NCBI RefSeq assembly: GCF_001714725.1
Contig: NZ_CP016447.1
Coordinates: forward strand, 1,937,001-2,001,000
Source of the DNA: Acidovorax sp. RAC01
GTDB lineage: Bacteria; Pseudomonadota; Gammaproteobacteria; Burkholderiales; Burkholderiaceae_C
Length of the DNA: 64,000 nucleotides
Reading direction: 5' to 3'
The stretch's first letter is position 1. Each line of letters opens with the position of its first letter. Of the stretch, positions 1,488 to 53,538 are shown in pieces. The notes beneath the pieces were generated by a model that saw nothing but the letters and a program-made list of their open reading frames with translations, was not told the DNA's origin and did no database searches. The translations under genes were made by a program, and so were the position numbers.

Positions 1488-1552
1488 TTTGCTATAAAAA
1501 TAATAGCTTTTTGAGTCCGATGCGCTTGCCCTGAAGGCTTTTTGGGGCTTCA
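1488..1552. repeat. Comamonadaceae-type ~65-bp dispersed repeat, copy 1
   Basis: A TTTGCTATAAAAATAATAGC palindrome is followed by GCGCTTG and a GGCTTCA end. The same order of blocks, in either orientation, recurs near 8.06/9.26, 13.56, 16.82, 22.50, 30.13, 37.72 and 53.47 kb. This copy lies between the hemerythrin gene and the convergent small gene downstream of creD. Confidence 0.7.
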
Positions 1553-1610
1553 GTCGCGTTGAGAGTGCGTCCACCCATGCCGCCCGCAGGCCCTGCCGTG
1601 TGCCGCGGCG

Positions 1611-7083: not shown

Positions 7084-7193
7084 CAGCGGTCTCCGGGTAC
7101 TTCGGGCAAGGGCATTGGGGCACGCTCTGCAGGCTGGCGTGGTCTCCTGCAAGAATGGCGCATTGGAACAGGTTCCTCCGGCAGTTTGCCCGC

Positions 7194-7226
7194 GCGCGGC
7201 GCCTGCGGATTGTGCAGGCGCCGCGC
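7194..7226. repeat. Perfect 13-bp inverted repeat in a divergent promoter region
   Basis: GCGCGGCGCCTGC at 7194-7206 is mirrored exactly at 7214-7226 across a 7-base spacer, between marC (minus) and the dienelactone hydrolase gene (plus, start 7287). It is a candidate operator or a hairpin in the hydrolase leader. Confidence 0.6.
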
Positions 7227-7286
7227 AGGCATCTGCCGCACCGGTCACCGGTTGTTCACCACCATCTTCGTTCAAGGAGCACCAGC

Positions 7287-7976
7287 ATGGGCCAGTTTGT
7301 CGATCTCACTTCCAGCGATGGCGTCAAAGTTCCGGCCTGGGTGGCCACGCCCGACGGCGCCCCCAGGGGCGCCGTGGTGGTGCTGCAGGAAATCTTTGGC
7401 GTCAACTCGCACATCCGCGCCGTGGCCGACCGCTTTGCGGCGCGCGGTTTCCTGGCGGTGGCACCTGCCACTTTCCACCGCGTGCAGCCCGGTGTGGAGC
7501 TGGGCTACACCGGCGACGACATGCAGGCTGGCATGGGCCTCAAGGCCGCTGTGGAGGCGCTGCCCGCACCCGGCGTGATGCCCGACATCCAGGCCGCCAT
7601 CGACTACGCCGCTGCGCAAAGCGGTGGCAAGGTGGGCATCGTCGGCTTCTGCTGGGGCGGCCTGCTGACCTGGCGCGCGGCCTGCGAACTGCAGGGCCTG
7701 TCGGCCGCCGTGCCCTACTACGGCGGCGGCGTGACCACGCCCGACGAAGTGGCCCGCACGCCCAAGGTGCCGGTGCTGGCGCACTTTGGCGAGCGTGACC
7801 ACTGGATTCCGGTGGACAGCGTGCAGGCCTTTGCCCGCGCCCACCCGGGGGTGGAAGTGCACATCTACGCTGCCGACCACGGCTTCAACTGCGACCAGCG
7901 CGGCAGCTACGACGAGGCCGCCGCCATGGTGGCCCGTGACCGCACCCTGGCCTTCTTCGACCGCCACCTCGCGTGA
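7287..7976 (+). CDS. Dienelactone hydrolase family protein
   Basis: The 229-residue alpha/beta hydrolase carries the dienelactone hydrolase triad: nucleophile C122 in GFCWGG, Asp near 171 in FGERDHWIP, and H198 in DHGFNCDQR. The enzyme type opens lactone rings such as carboxymethylenebutenolide in aromatic degradation, but no chlorocatechol genes are near, so the true substrate is open. AAGGAG 7 bases upstream supports the start. It is followed 61 bases on by the interrupted amidohydrolase gene on the same strand and probably formed an operon with it. Confidence 0.88.
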   Translation: MGQFVDLTSSDGVKVPAWVATPDGAPRGAVVVLQEIFGVNSHIRAVADRFAARGFLAVAPATFHRVQPGVELGYTGDDMQAGMGLKAAVEALPAPGVMPDIQAAIDYAAAQSGGKVGIVGFCWGGLLTWRAACELQGLSAAVPYYGGGVTTPDEVARTPKVPVLAHFGERDHWIPVDSVQAFARAHPGVEVHIYAADHGFNCDQRGSYDEAAAMVARDRTLAFFDRHLA

Positions 7977-8080
7977 GCTGAGGGAACAGGCCGCATCGCT
8001 GCGGATGTACAGCGCTGGAACAGTGAAGGACACCGCCATGGCAATCCAAACCCGGTTTTTCAAGCGTTTTAGCCCTCTAG

Positions 8081-9257
8081 GGTCCCTCTGCACAAATCCC
8101 TGCGCTGTGTGCCTGGACATGGCTGAAGCCCAGACAATAAGGCCATGAAGCAAAGCAGCCTGGGACTGAGCAACACCACCAAGCGCACGCGCAAGCGTGA
8201 ATTCCTTGACTCCATGGAACTGGTGGTGCCCTGGGCTGAACTGGTCTCGCTGATAGAGCCCTACGCACCCGAGTGCGGACGCCGGGGCCAGCAGCCTTTT
8301 TCGGTGCAGATCCTGCTGCGCATCCATTTCATGCAGCAGTGGTTCAAGCTCAGCGACCCAGCCATGGAAGAAGCACTGCACGACGTGCCTGCCTTTCGGG
8401 ACTTTGCCGGCCTGTCTCACTGGGATGAACACATCCCCAGTGAATCGAGCATCTTGCGTTTCAGGCATCTGCTGGAGCGCCACAAGCTGGCCGAACAAAT
8501 ACTCGCTACCGTCAATGCGCTGCTGCAGGCCAAAGGGCTGCAACTCAAAGCGGGCACGGTGGTGGATGCCACGCTCATTGCCGCACCCAGCTCCACCAAG
8601 AATCAAAAGGGCGAGCGCGACCCCGAGATGCACCAAAGCAAGAAGGGCAACCAGTGGTACTTCGGCATGAAGGCCCACATTGGCGTAGATGCGGACTCAG
8701 GCCTGGTGCACAGCGTTCGAGGCACCAGCGGCAATGTGAACGACGTGGTTGAAGCAAACAGTCTGCTGCATGGGCAAGAAACTGATGCCTTTGGTGACGC
8801 GGGCTACCAAGGGGTGGACAGGCGGCCCGATGCCAACAAGAACGTGCGATGGCATGTGGCCATGCGCCCTGGGTTGCGCCGGGCTCTGGACAAGGGCAAC
8901 CCTGTGGGGGTGCTGATCGATCAACTTGAACGCACCAAGGCCAGCATCCGGGCCAGGGTGGAGCACCCGTTCCGAGTGATCAAGCAGCAGTTTGGATATG
9001 TGAAGGTGCGCTACCGTGGGCTCAAGAAGAACACGGCGCAGATCGTCACGCTGTTTGCGCTTTCAAACCTGTGGATGGCAAGGCACAAACTGCTGGCCTG
9101 TCGGGGACAGGTGCGTCTGCAAGGGGCTTAGTGCCCCTGGAAACCGGGCAATTGCCCTCGCGCAGCGCCTGCTGGGCGTGCCCAACTCTCGAAAGCAGGT
9201 GCTGTTTTAGTGCGGCCTCGCTATGGCACAGCCAGAACCGATTGGTGAAGAGGTTCC
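8081..9257 (+). mobile_element. IS5-family insertion sequence, 1177 bp
   Basis: The ends are imperfect 18-bp inverted repeats: GGTCCCTCTGCACAAATC at the left and, read inward on the minus strand, GGAACCTCTTCACCAATC at the right (14 of 18 match). Both sides carry CTAG (8077-8080 and 9258-9261), which fits the 4-bp YTAR-type target duplication of the IS5 group. The length and the single transposase gene are typical of the family. The transposase frame is intact, so the copy may be active. One base of boundary ambiguity remains because the IS end could include the G of CTAG. Confidence 0.88.
8145..9131 (+). CDS. IS5-family DDE transposase
   Basis: The 328-residue protein has the IS5 transposase layout: an N-terminal helical region beginning near FLDSMELVVPW, then a DDE catalytic domain. 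First Asp is in VVDATLIAAPSS, second in FGDAGYQGVDRR, and the Glu is in RVEHPFRVIK within the R-x3-E-x6-K signature. The YFGMKAHIGVDADSG segment is characteristic. The frame is uninterrupted and full length. It lies wholly inside the IS at 8081-9257, leaving about 126 non-coding bases before the right end. Confidence 0.93.
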   Translation: MKQSSLGLSNTTKRTRKREFLDSMELVVPWAELVSLIEPYAPECGRRGQQPFSVQILLRIHFMQQWFKLSDPAMEEALHDVPAFRDFAGLSHWDEHIPSESSILRFRHLLERHKLAEQILATVNALLQAKGLQLKAGTVVDATLIAAPSSTKNQKGERDPEMHQSKKGNQWYFGMKAHIGVDADSGLVHSVRGTSGNVNDVVEANSLLHGQETDAFGDAGYQGVDRRPDANKNVRWHVAMRPGLRRALDKGNPVGVLIDQLERTKASIRARVEHPFRVIKQQFGYVKVRYRGLKKNTAQIVTLFALSNLWMARHKLLACRGQVRLQGA

Positions 9258-9317
9258 CTAGCGCTTGTTCCGTTTGCTATTGCAGCTATTTTTTCAATAG
9301 CAAACAGCACCCCGGCC

Positions 9318-10163
9318 ATGGCGGCGGGCTACACGGGGCCGTTGTTTGACGCCCACCTGCATTACAACGACGAAGCCTGGGACGGCAAGGCCGGCCCGCA
9401 CCCGCCGGCCGATGTGCTGGCCCGCATGAAGGCATCGCAGGTGCGGGGCATTCTGGCCAACTCGCGGCCCAATGCAGGGTCGCTGGCGCTGGCGGGCCTG
9501 CCGCAGATGCGCGAGGCCGGCATCACGGTGGTGCCCTTTGTGCGCCTGTACCGCAACCGCGCCGACTACAGCACCTGGTTTGCCGACGAGACCATTCACA
9601 CCATGGTGCTCGACGAACTGGCCCGCGGCACCCCCGCCGGGCCCTACCGCGGCATTGGCGAATTCCACCTCTACGACAGCGCCAACGCCAACGGCCCCGT
9701 GGCCCAAAAGCTGATGGCCCTGGCCGAGCAGCGCAGCCTGGTGGTGCTGGCCCATGTGGACGACGTGGCCATTGACCTGCTCATGGCCCACACCCCGTCG
9801 CAGGGCCGCAGCATGCAGCTGATCTGGGCCCACACCGGCATCGGCGGCGCGCCGGTGGAGCGGGTGGATGCGCTGATGGCGCGCTACCCCGGCCTGCTGG
9901 GCGAGCTGTCGTACCGGCCCGGGCTGGTGTGCGAAAACGACCAGCTTTGCCCTGCCTGGAGTGCGCTGCTGCTCAAGTACCCCGACCGCTTCGTCATTGG
10001 CTCGGACACCTGGGTCAACCAGCGCTGGCAGTACTACGAAAGCCTGATGCAGGGCTACCGCACCTGGCTGGGCGGCCTGCCGCCCGATGTGGCGCAGAAG
10101 GTCGCCTGGGGCAATGCGGCGCGGCTCTTCGGGCTGCCGGCCCGCGGGCCGTCGGGGCCCTGA
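9318..10163 (+). CDS. Amidohydrolase family protein, residual catalytic domain
   Basis: This is the largest intact frame left from the interrupted gene, 281 residues. It shows the metal-dependent TIM-barrel pattern: DAHLHYN near the N-terminus, RGIGEFHLY mid-barrel, [16 protein letters not shown], and the late Asp in VIGSDTW with a trailing [10 protein letters not shown] helix typical of amidohydrolase-2 proteins. The Met at 9318 is the M of the PAMA cleavage site of the restored signal peptide, not a natural start, and no ribosome site precedes it. If translated at all, the product would stay in the cytoplasm. Confidence 0.75.
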
Positions 10164-10266: not shown

Positions 10267-11811
10267 TCAGGCCAGCTTGAAGCGGTTCACGCTCTCGGCC
10301 AGCGAGACGGCCTGTTCGCGCAGGTTTTCGGCGGCAGCGGCGGATTCTTCCACCAGCGATGCGTTTTGCTGCGTCATGCGGTCGAGCTCGGCCACGGCCA
10401 CGTTCACCTGCGAGATGCCATTGCTCTGCTCGCCGGTGGCGTGCGTGATTTCCTGGATCAGTGTCTGCACCTCGTGCACGCTGCTGACCACGCGGGCCAT
10501 GGTGCCGCCCGCCTCGGCCACCTGGGCCGAGCCCGCTTCCACGCGCTCGACCGACGCCTGGATCAGCGTCTTGATCTCGCGCGCCGCCCCGGCGCTGCGG
10601 CTGGCCAGGTTGCGCACCTCGGTGGCCACCACGGCAAAACCACGTCCCTGCTCGCCGGCACGGGCGGCTTCCACCGCAGCGTTCAGCGCCAGGATGTTGG
10701 TCTGGAAGGCAATGCCGTCAATCACGCCGATGATGTCGGCAATCTGGCGCGACGACTCGGTGATGCCGTTCATGGTGTCCACCACGCGGGCCACGGCTTC
10801 GCCGCCCTGGGCCGCCACGGCGCTGGCCTGGTCGGCGCGCTCGGCAGCCTTGCGGGCGGCCTCGGCGTTGTGGGCCACCGAGCCGGTCAGCTCTTCCATG
10901 CTGGCGGCGGTTTCTTCCAGGTTGGCGGCGGTGCTTTCGGTGCGGCTGCTCAGGTCCATGTTGCCGCTGGCGATCTGCTCGCTGGCCTGGGCCAGCTGTT
11001 CGGTGGCGCTGTGCACGGTCTGCAGCGTGTCCTGCAGGTTATGGCTCATGTCCTTCATGGCCTGCAGCAGGTGGCTGATCTCGTCAGTGCCCTTGATCGT
11101 GATCTTCTGCGACAGGTCCCGCTGCGCAATGGCCTGGGCCACGCGGATGGCCTTGTTCAGCCCCTTGGTCACCGTGCGGTACACGTTGCGCACCAGCAGC
11201 AGGTTGATGGCCAGCGCCATCACCACCACGGCAGCGGTGCGCCACACGCTGGCCAGAAACTGCGCCCGCAGGTCGTCGGCATACACGCCCGAGCCCAGCA
11301 CCCAGCCCCAGGGCGCAAAGCCCTTCACGTATGAGATCTTGGGCGCGGGCTTGTCCTGGCCCGGCTTGGGCCACTGGTATTCCACCAGGCCGCCGCCGTC
11401 GCTTTTCTGCGCGCGCTGGGCAAACATCACGAAGATGGCCTTGCCATCGGGGTCCTTGATGCCCGAGCCGTCCTTGCCATTGAGGTCGGGGCGGAAGGGG
11501 TGCATGACCACGCGGGCGTTCATGTCCTGCAGCCAGAAGTATTCGTTGCCCGAGTAGCGCACCGTCTGCAGCGCCTGGTGTGCCATCTGCTGGGCTTCTT
11601 CGCGGGTGTGGCGCCCTGACGTTTCCAGCTGGTGGGCCCAGGTCAGGACCGAGTGGCCCACTTCCACCGTCTGGCGCACGGCGGTCTCGCGGTCGCGGCG
11701 GTTGTCCTGGTACTGGCTCAGCAGCATGTACGCCGAAACGGCAATGAGGATCAGGGTGCTCACGGCAGCCATCAGCCGGAGCTTTCCGACGATAGAAATG
11801 CTTTTATTCAT
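10267..11811 (-). CDS. Methyl-accepting chemotaxis protein with Cache sensor
   Basis: The 514-residue chemoreceptor has a membrane helix at about 7-28, a periplasmic single-Cache domain (YFWLQDMNARVVMHPFRPDLNGKDGSGIKDPDG region, with GWVLGSGVYADD at its end), a second helix near 190-210, a HAMP segment and a C-terminal signalling domain. The hairpin tip GIAFQTNILALNAAVEAARAGEQGRGFAVVA is intact. The ligand is unknown; this Cache type often binds small organic acids. The protein ends RFKLA with no CheR-tethering pentapeptide. No che genes are adjacent, so it is an orphan receptor. The start at 11811 is fixed by the first membrane helix. Confidence 0.93.
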   Translation of the reverse strand: MNKSISIVGKLRLMAAVSTLILIAVSAYMLLSQYQDNRRDRETAVRQTVEVGHSVLTWAHQLETSGRHTREEAQQMAHQALQTVRYSGNEYFWLQDMNARVVMHPFRPDLNGKDGSGIKDPDGKAIFVMFAQRAQKSDGGGLVEYQWPKPGQDKPAPKISYVKGFAPWGWVLGSGVYADDLRAQFLASVWRTAAVVVMALAINLLLVRNVYRTVTKGLNKAIRVAQAIAQRDLSQKITIKGTDEISHLLQAMKDMSHNLQDTLQTVHSATEQLAQASEQIASGNMDLSSRTESTAANLEETAASMEELTGSVAHNAEAARKAAERADQASAVAAQGGEAVARVVDTMNGITESSRQIADIIGVIDGIAFQTNILALNAAVEAARAGEQGRGFAVVATEVRNLASRSAGAAREIKTLIQASVERVEAGSAQVAEAGGTMARVVSSVHEVQTLIQEITHATGEQSNGISQVNVAVAELDRMTQQNASLVEESAAAAENLREQAVSLAESVNRFKLA

Positions 11812-12344
11812 GGTGCTGTCAAACAGTGAATTCGATGTGCCCACCCACGCAATTCAACGTTGGCGGCGGCGTTGCGGTGGCCCTGCCCGGCGGGGCGGGT
11901 GCTGATGGCATCCCGGAAATGCTTGAGGCGGGTGTATCCGGAAGACGGATGCCTGCTGTGCAAGGGGGTGGGGATGCGCTATCAGATGGATGAAATTGTA
12001 AATGATATTTATGATTTATGGGTAGTCATAAATATCATTTTCTGTTTTGTTGTAGTGCAGCATCGTTGTCTCCTCCAAGGGGCACGCCCCTCTATGCCCC
12101 GAAGTGGTGCGAACGCATGGTGGGGTGGGTTACAAATGTAACGAACGCGCCTTACCGGTTCTTGACCCATGTCAACGTGTGCCCAACCTTGGGGCGAAGG
12201 GGCACGGGCATGAGGCCTGGCGGCAGGTCAGGCGTTCGCGGCAGGGCCTGGGTGGATCGGGGGGGCGCGCGGGGTGCCGGCGCGCGCGCACGCCGGACCA
12301 GGGGTTGGCCCCCGGGGCGGCGAGGCAGTCCGGCCGTCAGGTGG
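11812..12344. other. 533-base intergenic region with an AT-rich operator-like dyad
   Basis: Between the chemoreceptor start and the CorA stop there is no supportable gene. The stretch 11985-12060 is much richer in A+T than its surroundings and contains the perfect 15-bp inverted repeat at 12000-12040. A short GGGGC/GCCCC hairpin lies near 12078-12091. The rest is GC-rich without a clear feature. The chemoreceptor promoter should lie here. Confidence 0.6.
12000..12040. promoter_or_regulatory. Perfect 15-bp inverted repeat, operator-like
   Basis: AAATGATATTTATGA at 12000-12014 is mirrored exactly at 12026-12040 across 11 bases. It is an island of low GC about 190 bases upstream of the chemoreceptor gene. 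The AT-rich palindromic form resembles sites of Rrf2, Fur or TetR-type repressors, but I cannot assign one. Confidence 0.6.
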
Positions 12345-13526: not shown

Positions 13527-13558
13527 GGGCGCGGCGTGGCCTCCGGGAAGGTGATTCA

Positions 13559-16296
<2,738 letters not shown>

Positions 16297-16819: not shown

Positions 16820-16886
16820 TTTATTGGTCTTTTCGGCTTTCAGCGCTTGTATTTATTGCACTGTCAGCTATAAATAATATAGCAAT
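16820..16886. repeat. Dispersed ~65-bp repeat, copy 4
   Basis: GGCTTTCAGCGCTTG followed by TCAGCTATAAATAATATAGC matches the family core. The palindrome ends only 3-4 bases before the GTG start of the next gene, so the repeat forms most of its 5' leader and no ribosome site is visible. Confidence 0.75.
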
Positions 16887-22496: not shown

Positions 22497-22563
22497 TTTT
22501 GAAGCCAAAAATGCCTCCAGCGCTTGCTCATCTTGCGCTGGATGCTATTGAATAAGTAGCAAG
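22497..22563. repeat. Dispersed ~65-bp repeat, copy 5, inside the str operon
   Basis: TTTTGAAGCCAAAAATGCC, TCCAGCGCTTG, a partner GCGCTGGA and TGCTATTGAATAAGTAGCA give an almost complete element with two internal palindromes. It lies between fusA and tuf, so it is transcribed with the operon. Confidence 0.75.
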
Positions 22564-30119: not shown

Positions 30120-30131
30120 AAGATCTGTGAC

Positions 30132-30195
30132 TGCTATTGAATAAATAGCGCCTTAGGCAGATGAAACGGGCGCTAGAGCCCGAAATCCTCAAAAA
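30132..30195. repeat. Dispersed ~65-bp repeat, copy 6
   Basis: TGCTATTGAATAAATAGCGC, then GGGCGCTAGAGCCC and TCAAAAA: the element in the orientation opposite to copy 5. It joins the peroxiredoxin gene to the convergent acetyltransferase gene, whose TGA stop (30189-30191) lies inside it. Confidence 0.7.
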
Positions 30196-30680
30196 AGATC
30201 GACTTTGAGGTAGTGGGCCCCGGCAATCGGGTTGTGATAGTAAGGAGGAATTTCCTCAAACCCCAGGTCGGTATACAGCGCGCGCGCCGACTCCATGTCA
30301 TCCAGCGTATCGAGCAGCACGCAGGCGTAACCCGCCTGTCGTGCGCGGTCCAGCATGGCCTCGGCCAGTTCCCGGCCCAGGCCGAACCCGCGAAACGCCT
30401 TGCGCACGTACAGGCGCTTCATCTCGCTGGCGTTGGGGTAGTCGGCCGTGTCCAGCGGACGCAGGGCGCAGCAGCCCGCCACCGACCCATCGACCACCGC
30501 CAGCAGCAGGGCTCCGCGGGGCTCGGCATAGTCGCCGGGCAGCGACGCCAGTTCGGACTCGAACCCCTGGAAGCACAGATCCACCCCAAGTGTCTCGGCG
30601 TACTCCCTGAAGATCATCCGCACCCCTTCCAGCTCGGTTGGGGTGGAAGGGCTCAGGAGCTCAATGGTCGGCTTGTCCAA
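30189..30680 (-). CDS. GNAT family N-acetyltransferase
   Basis: The protein has the acetyl-CoA binding motif RLYVRKAFRGFGLGRELAEAML (Q/RxxGxG/A type) and a C-terminal GYACVLLDTL...YTDLGFEEIPPYY segment. The substrate is unknown. The start is uncertain: the TTG at 30680 gives 163 residues, the usual size. An in-frame ATG at 30767 would overlap the end of the cytochrome b561 gene by 40 bases. No good ribosome site is seen for either. Confidence 0.8.
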   Translation of the reverse strand: MDKPTIELLSPSTPTELEGVRMIFREYAETLGVDLCFQGFESELASLPGDYAEPRGALLLAVVDGSVAGCCALRPLDTADYPNASEMKRLYVRKAFRGFGLGRELAEAMLDRARQAGYACVLLDTLDDMESARALYTDLGFEEIPPYYHNPIAGAHYLKVDLF

Positions 30681-32218: not shown

Positions 32219-32293
32219 CACTTGACTGGGGCGCGCCCGTTGCAGGCTTTAGCTATTAAAGTGAGAGCGGGTAGTGCATGCTGAGCCAGCGCG

Positions 32294-32323
32294 AAAGGCC
32301 GATTTCACCTGGAATCGGCCTTT
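32294..32323. terminator. Bidirectional terminator hairpin
   Basis: AAAGGCCGATT at 32294-32304 pairs with AATCGGCCTTT at 32313-32323 (11 bp, 8-base loop). It lies between the convergent cytochrome c' and TlpA-like genes. The T runs are short on both strands. Confidence 0.7.
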
Positions 32324-37698: not shown

Positions 37699-37716
37699 GC
37701 TTTCTGGCAATCAAAA

Positions 37717-37771
37717 TTGATAGCATAAAAAGCTTATGCGTCAAGCGACGGAGCCCATTTTGATTCAAAAA
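37717..37771. repeat. Dispersed ~65-bp repeat, copy 7, diverged
   Basis: TTGATAGCATAAAAAGC, GTCAAGCGACGGAGCCC and TTTTGATTCAAAAA follow the family block order but with several changes. It lies between ptsI and the convergent EamA gene. Confidence 0.55.
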
Positions 37772-53471: not shown

Positions 53472-53538
53472 TTTTGAAGCGAAAATAGCCTCTAGGGCAT
53501 GTTCCACAAGACTTTATAGCTATAAATAATATAGCAAT
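53472..53538. repeat. Dispersed ~65-bp repeat, copy 8
   Basis: TTTTGAAGCGAAAATAGCC, TCTAGGGCATG and TAGCTATAAATAATATAGCA are close to the family consensus, and CTAG is present in the core as in the copy hit by the IS. Confidence 0.75.

Follow-up and report, generated by a model that had tools for sequence, protein, structure and literature searches.

The window analysed here, a 64-kb stretch of the Acidovorax sp. RAC01 chromosome, contains an amidohydrolase gene whose signal peptide is split by an insertion sequence (IS) of the IS5 family. Beyond what a preliminary description of the same DNA had proposed, we found that the split signal peptide, judged by its sequence, corresponds to one copy of a palindromic repeat, about 66 bp long, that is dispersed through the genome. 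We propose an explanation in four steps, which as a whole we consider highly probable. First, in most same-genus genomes that carry the gene, the hydrophobic core of the signal peptide is, at the sequence level, a copy of the repeat, read in the one frame that encodes a hydrophobic stretch. Second, insertion of the repeat, or conversion, would have replaced an older, ordinary signal peptide, and would have done so in several genes; such a replacement would be tolerated because selection on signal peptides acts on their hydrophobicity rather than on the exact residues. Third, in this strain, an IS5-family element present in 12 copies inserted at a CTAG inside the repeat, for a reason that the scarcity of CTAG may supply. 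Fourth, this insertion would put an end to export of the enzyme and probably to most of its expression. Coordinates are collected in Table 1.

The chromosome analysed (genome G000) is a single contig of 4.57 Mb; positions below are those of the 64-kb window. The preliminary description had placed the start of the gene at ATG 8038, behind a good ribosome site, and an IS5 element between two CTAG sequences in a frame that could be restored exactly. Our analysis bears this out: the joined flanks give 945 nt, or 315 codons including the stop, with a single terminal stop. The catalytic part belongs to Amidohydro_2 (PF04909, 34.9 bits against a gathering cut-off of 26.4), and at E ≤ 0.01 we detected no relative of solved structure by sequence. 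In the closest relative, G030 (96% protein identity), the gene is uninterrupted, the signal peptide lies at the same place and the empty site matches the join; across 276 codons of the catalytic part, the two genes have 37 synonymous and 12 non-synonymous differences. Of the 35 same-genus genomes searched, 25 carry a homologue. Every one of these homologues has an uninterrupted upstream frame with a start codon and a signal-peptide-like N-terminus, rather than beginning at the internal methionine. Inspection of the translations indicated the features of a Sec-type signal peptide: a positive n-region, a hydrophobic core and an A-x-A-like end directly before the mature domain. The proposal that the split sequence is a signal peptide thus agrees with the homologues. 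Named relatives of the gene come mostly from Acidovorax and other Comamonadaceae, the nearest being a metagenome-assembled genome (MAG), Burkholderiales bacterium Ga0074133.

Taken alone, the IS insertion is ordinary. The transposase scores 326.4 bits against the NCBIfam model transpos_IS5_4 (cut-off 140), which identifies it as an IS5-type DDE enzyme, as had been suggested, and the ends of the element are imperfect inverted repeats (GGTCCCTCTGCACAAAT and GGAACCTCTTCACCAAT; 13 of 17 bases alike, by eye). Full-length copies of 1168-1178 bp occur 12 times in the chromosome, and four of them, the copy at 8081-9257 among them, are 100% identical. Identical 4-bp duplications flank all 12 (nine CTAG, two TTAG and one CTAA), each matching the YTAR target of the IS5 family; hence, the insertion is a real transposition and not a chance arrangement. 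In transposase, 4-bp YTAR target and imperfect inverted ends the element resembles IS5-family members generally, and we found no difference that would set it apart; its best plasmid match is in Acidovorax sp. DW039 (86% over 97%). The sequences indicate a recent insertion, which we saw in this chromosome alone among the genomes examined.

The frame that opens at ATG 8038 stops inside the IS after 36 codons. Behind the IS, the frame has no ATG, GTG or TTG ahead of 9318, and no Shine-Dalgarno-like sequence precedes ATG 9318. It would follow that any protein still made is not exported. Since IS elements can carry outward promoters and the catalytic frame is intact, the insertion might be functional, with an IS-borne promoter driving a cytoplasmic form from ATG 9318. 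We consider this unlikely: the candidate promoter in the IS end was not found in a scan of positions 9100-9400, which detected no promoter-like site (other promoter types lay outside that scan), ATG 9318 lacks a Shine-Dalgarno-like sequence, and an intact frame is expected anyway after an insertion as recent as the four identical copies suggest. The preliminary description had inferred loss of export with retention of the catalytic domain. The frame has indeed been retained, but with no earlier start, no promoter-like site and no Shine-Dalgarno-like sequence, loss of expression is at least as probable as a cytoplasmic enzyme, and appears likely.

The DNA that the IS splits is AT-rich and contains the near-palindrome GTTTGCTATTG..CAATAGCAAAC. 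Searching the chromosome for GCTATTGAAAAAATAGC with at most one mismatch, we detected 17 strand matches, compared with 0 for the reversed control. The repeat is about 66 bp long, dispersed and palindromic, with the consensus tTTTcgaGTcAAAttGGCCTCTAGGGCTTGttTtAaaTGCCTTTATAGCTATtttTTTaATAGCAA. A strict pattern, AGCTATNNNTTTGATAGC, allowed at most one mismatch, gave 66 strand matches at 64 places in the chromosome (reversed control, 0). The same pattern was applied to seven other same-genus genomes, five of which have 56 to 167 matches; G005 has 8 and G032 has 6. By a simple codon-based method of gene calling, liable to overlook short genes, 49 of the 64 places are intergenic, 8 are antisense to genes and 7 lie on the sense strand. 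Six of these seven share one frame; two of the six (L185 and L213) are clear signal peptides, and each of the remaining four is either uncertain or no signal peptide. At several loci (L189, L246, L254, L255, L262 and L268), the repeat lies directly before or at the gene start and mostly opens into the gene; these are not signal peptides, and are possible cases of start-site drift. Copies that open into genes but lie ahead of the likely start, such as L246, L254, L255, L262 and L268, were not counted as signal peptides. We detected PF01797 (Y1_Tnp) in all 20 genomes searched, including the repeat-poor G002, G005, G031 and G032; hence, the presence of a RAYT transposase, a candidate driver of repeat number, does not tell repeat-rich from repeat-poor genomes.

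We derived a weight matrix from 37 intergenic copies in the chromosome, training it without the amidohydrolase; 15 genic copies were left out, and an orientation filter dropped 13 of 50 segments. Scoring covered 85 of 109 loci, namely those with a 12-letter protein motif and 140 nt before it. The joined site in the window scores 68.4 bits, and the signal-peptide DNA of 23 of the 25 same-genus homologues scores 39.5-64.0 bits. For random 140-nt windows the mean is -37.7 bits and the 99% point -7.9, and their maximum, 77.9, is a genuine copy at 53472. In the two exceptions, L023 and L026, the signal peptide is an ordinary one rich in Ala and Leu; these loci belong to G005 and G032, the genomes with 8 and 6 pattern matches. 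The match is one of DNA, and not of peptide likeness only. Moreover, all 34 distinct signal-peptide copies, other genera included, are read in one and the same frame; at L164, the start codon itself lies inside the repeat. The hydrophobic stretch in that frame resembles F-K-P-x-W-P-L-A-L-x-x-x-A-L-x-A-I-x-L-I-A. Fourteen of the 37 intergenic copies are both stop-free and strongly hydrophobic in it; the five remaining frames combined give 1 such case, and random windows give 135 of 5000. Because many copies already encode a hydrophobic stretch in that frame, the repeat could serve as a signal-peptide core that is portable.

Read in that frame, the repeat also makes up the core of the signal peptide in at least six further Pfam families, with matrix scores of 31.6 to 68.9; the peptide searches for this frame yielded a biased set, fetched in part from the best matches listed, so these counts are lower bounds. 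Peptide search and Pfam identified a PBP_like_2 binding protein, which we take to be Tup-like, in at least 17 genomes. Pfam assigned a glucose/sorbosone dehydrogenase and TctC-family receptors, in at least two genomes each, and a Peptidase_M48, a DUF2147 protein and a cyclophilin. Two of the cases came from the census of repeats in the chromosome, in which at least four genes (amidohydrolase, Tup-like, DUF2147 and cyclophilin) have such a signal peptide. As in coding palindromic repeats, then, copies are dispersed and numerous in and between genes, and lie in frame in seven Pfam families. One TctC gene, L211, has the hairpin within its longest frame but was not counted, its matrix score being -5 and its Pfam domain starting as late as residue 115; nor were L294, L295 and L296, which have no supported gene.

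We searched for the Tup-like protein again, by its mature part alone, in 23 further genomes. It is present in 15 of 16 same-genus genomes, our own included, and 12 of the 15 score 33.9-67.1 bits (67.1 in G000). The Tup-like genes of the repeat-poor G005 and G032 score about -45 bits and have ordinary signal peptides, and in five genomes belonging to other families, six Tup-like N-termini all lie below -29 bits (one further locus was unreadable). Overall, the repeat lies at the Tup-like gene in 29 of 36 same-genus genomes, three of the 36 being outside the examination. The gene in G031 (L311) scores -10.4 bits at the DNA level; its peptide, RFFRAPARVRRFLLAGVLLACGAAASAQ, is still repeat-like, with none of 500 shuffles scoring as high, and the stretch is 68% GC, compared with 44-50% in three repeat-type copies. 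Neither peptide search returned G031 among the matches listed. This copy looks like a former repeat that was recoded while its peptide was kept.

A different account would have the repeat kept for its own sake at the start of the amidohydrolase gene, as mRNA hairpins or in the control of the gene pair, with a start codon that moved upstream and by accident made the repeat coding. The 49 intergenic copies would suit such a role, as would the several copies just ahead of genes that open into them, and hairpin 2 is kept in coding copies too, being paired in 98-100% of cells. An accident sits badly with a frame that is the same in all 34 distinct copies, and with the G031 peptide, whose retention after the DNA match was lost points to selection on the peptide; we think it quite unlikely that coding arose in this way.

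To the matrix scores we added controls at the codon level. Synonymous recoding with the codon usage of the window, 200 times for each of 45 rows of at least 30 bits (the join included, some genomes represented twice, and other genera included), gave 9,000 recodings, none of which reached the real score of its own row. The rare codon ATA makes up 60 of 118 Ile codons in the repeat signal-peptide stretches, compared with 6 of 580 in 27 genes of the window. When scoring is confined to the 5' 44 columns, a stretch without the second hairpin, 31 of the 34 distinct copies lie above the 99% point for these columns; in the same protein, 38 signal-peptide regions that lack the repeat reach at most 6.5 bits there. 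The recoding already disfavours the idea that an ordinary IS5 element hit an ordinary signal peptide whose likeness to the repeat is convergence of Ala/Leu/Ile-rich cores, an idea that we find very hard to credit even though signal peptides are degenerate and hydrophobic and recoded peptides score on average above random windows (mean 0.3 compared with -37.7 bits, lengths unmatched).

Across 80 named loci of the amidohydrolase gene, 25 score at least 20 bits, 2 score between 0 and 20, and 53 score below 0. Ordinary signal peptides are found at most Variovorax and Ramlibacter loci, in both Caenimonas and in the Acidovorax soli/CF316/Root219 group. The repeat is present in two Polaromonas, a Ramlibacter MAG (L166), a Rhodoferax MAG (L154, 29.5 bits) and several further lineages. 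We compared 37 genomes, hand-chosen from the 80 loci, with a cut set after the counts were seen and kinship uncorrected: a repeat signal peptide of at least 20 bits occurs in 12 of the 14 that have 3.4 or more pattern matches per Mb, compared with 1 of the 23 below that value. On a tree of 70 mature proteins, built from matrix-scored loci with identical proteins, L028-L030 and the short L159 left out, the signal-peptide label needs at least seven changes. Three MAGs, L128 (Hydrogenophaga), L175 (Burkholderiaceae) and L137 (Rhodoferax), have repeat-like peptides with a weaker DNA match (5.5, 10.7 and 20.5 bits); their genomes have 10, 4 and 3 pattern matches, respectively.

The sequence CTAG occurs 16 times in the window compared with 210 expected from base composition, and is therefore about 13-fold scarcer than expected. 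Three of the 16 sites lie within repeat copies, the right-hand duplicate at the insertion included. Among the intergenic copies, 5 of 37 have CTAG at the corresponding place of the repeat, as do 6 of the 34 copies in signal peptides. Since CTAG is scarce in the window and the repeat is one place that has it, the repeat would be a natural landing site. A second copy of the IS (L039) does lie at the CTAG of another repeat copy, its joined flanks scoring 55.7 bits; the joined flanks of the other ten copies score below 0 bits. Two of 12 IS copies would fit the share that the repeat has of this rare target, small as these numbers are, so no special targeting need be supposed.

Several observations weigh against parts of this explanation. 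Recruitment is rare per copy: by inspection, 2 of the 64 census copies in the chromosome are signal peptides, a count that leaves out the amidohydrolase and Tup-like copies, which the strict pattern misses. The signal-peptide frame is not unusually open, being stop-free in 17 of 37 intergenic copies, where two of the other frames give 16 and 20. When the 5' 44 columns are scored by themselves, every signal-peptide copy stays within the random maximum of 48.4 bits, from which genuine copies had not been cleared. Covariation in the hairpins, analysed with 12 of 17 Tup-like copies, is weak within each set, leaving stem conservation as the sole argument for them. The number of IS copies that lie in the repeat is small, 2 of 12, and CTAG stands at that place in no more than 5 of the 37 intergenic copies. 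The link to repeat number also has its misfits: L098 (a Giesbergeria MAG) is repeat-rich, with 44 matches, yet has an ordinary signal peptide; L165, at the cut with 20 matches, scores -11 bits; and L137 is repeat-poor yet scores 20.5 bits. Finally, well-supported branches of the tree force two label changes alone; thus, several independent gains of the repeat signal peptide are likely rather than proven. The broader proposal is that a Comamonadaceae repeat serves as a portable signal-peptide core that replaces a signal peptide when it lands in the right orientation and frame, that it did so separately in at least seven families, and that in some copies the codons later changed while the peptide was retained, giving host codon usage; for this, we judge the case evenly balanced.

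The Rickettsia palindromic elements, which Ogata et al. reportedly described, are one system with which the repeat can be compared. By their description in the accessible text of one source (PMC10969869), both are palindromic repeats found in frame within unrelated protein genes; those elements are about 150 bp long, whereas the present repeat is shorter and its counted gene copies lie at signal peptides. The repeat may thus work like the Rickettsia elements, by analogy and with no claim of membership. A precedent, of which the present case is a variant, is the RU-2/YPAL element at Yersinia YPO1552 (Delihas 2007, PMC2759123, PMC2229807). In the parts of those papers available, RU-2/YPAL concerns mainly one putative exported protein of 144 aa, with a second locus, YPO2495, of weaker prediction (PMC2759123, PMC2229807). 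Set apart by description, the present repeat is about 66 bp long, is found in seven known families in one fixed frame, and extends through most of the genus and beyond; on the same partial texts, it exceeds the Yersinia case in genes, fixed frame and comparative controls. The beta-proteobacterial repeat element (BRE; PMC3110155) is likewise dispersed and mostly intergenic, and according to the available portion of that paper is reported in Polaromonas and Acidovorax too. Bordetella BREs are there described as 75-91 bp long, with 69% GC, and can be tandem, unlike our repeat of about 66 bp with its AT-rich hairpin; on this description of GC content, length and arrangement, we rejected the idea that the repeat is a BRE.

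The gain and loss of signal peptides were also the subject of a study of Enterobacterales (PMC5952966), in which, by the text accessible, transposable elements were tested with ISEScan and none was found near N-termini. ISEScan probably misses small palindromic repeats, since these are not insertion sequences. Among the literature matches listed, in which subscription journals are thinly covered, we found nothing on this repeat or its use in signal peptides, nor do the available parts of Rhodoferax and Ramlibacter genome papers mention it. A small repeat offers a visible source for signal-peptide gain and exchange, with natural replicates across species, and the question becomes testable by comparing repeat-rich with repeat-poor lineages. 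Where such N-termini are conserved, repeat DNA may be a cause alongside protein function, and signal peptides made from the repeat may be prone to insertion of IS elements with a preference for CTAG.

Table 1. Features of the 64-kb window, in order of position
Feature	Position	Strand	Basis or remark
Repeat copy	1489-1554	-	47.3 bits
Dienelactone-hydrolase-family gene, just upstream of the amidohydrolase	7155-7976	+	Pfam DLH 1.1e-46; possibly same operon
Shine-Dalgarno-like AAGGA	8026-8030	+	7 nt before ATG 8038; same in G030
Amidohydrolase frame, 5' part (n-region and start of signal peptide)	8038-8080	+	Joined frame open; 25 same-genus upstream frames
Repeat, left part (24 of 66 columns)	8057-8080	+	Weight-matrix score of joined site 68.4 bits
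Left target duplication CTAG	8077-8080	.	Sequence
IS5-family insertion sequence	8081-9257	+	1177 bp; one of 12 full copies in G000
IS5-family transposase, 328 aa	8145-9131	+	transpos_IS5_4 326 bits; DDE_Tnp_1
Right target duplication CTAG	9258-9261	.	Sequence
Repeat, right part (42 of 66 columns), the hydrophobic core of the signal peptide	9262-9303	+	Matrix, recoding and frame analyses
Signal-peptide c-region NSTPAMA	9303-9323	+	Translation; by position and residues alone
Amidohydro_2 catalytic part	9318-10163	+	PF04909 1.8e-8; stop-free; whole gene if annotated from ATG 9318
Methyl-accepting chemotaxis protein, downstream	10267-11844	-	Pfam MCPsignal, sCache_2
Repeat copy	13554-13619	+	58.1 bits
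Repeat copy	16820-16885	+	59.7 bits
Repeat copy	22497-22562	+	54.0 bits
Repeat copy with CTAG at 30173	30131-30196	-	46.0 bits
Repeat copy	32250-32315	-	44.1 bits
Repeat copy	37706-37771	-	40.1 bits
Repeat copy with CTAG at 53492	53472-53537	+	77.9 bits

The dienelactone-hydrolase-family gene lies beside the amidohydrolase gene on the same strand at 67 of the 109 relative loci, some genomes being counted twice. An Rfam scan of positions 7900-9600, as they stand and not as the joined site, gave no match at the gathering score; the lone sub-threshold match, D12-methyl at 8384-8442 on the minus strand (25.6 of 57 bits), lies inside the IS and is probably due to chance. Two other copies of the IS, L035 (G000:C1:1520909-1522085) and L037 (1875488-1876664), have the same right flank, ctagggagcctctgcccaaattaagcggcaagtg... 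The two flanks of L035 are near-mirror images, perhaps those of a palindromic element like a miniature inverted-repeat transposable element, with IS5-like ends and itself host to the IS.

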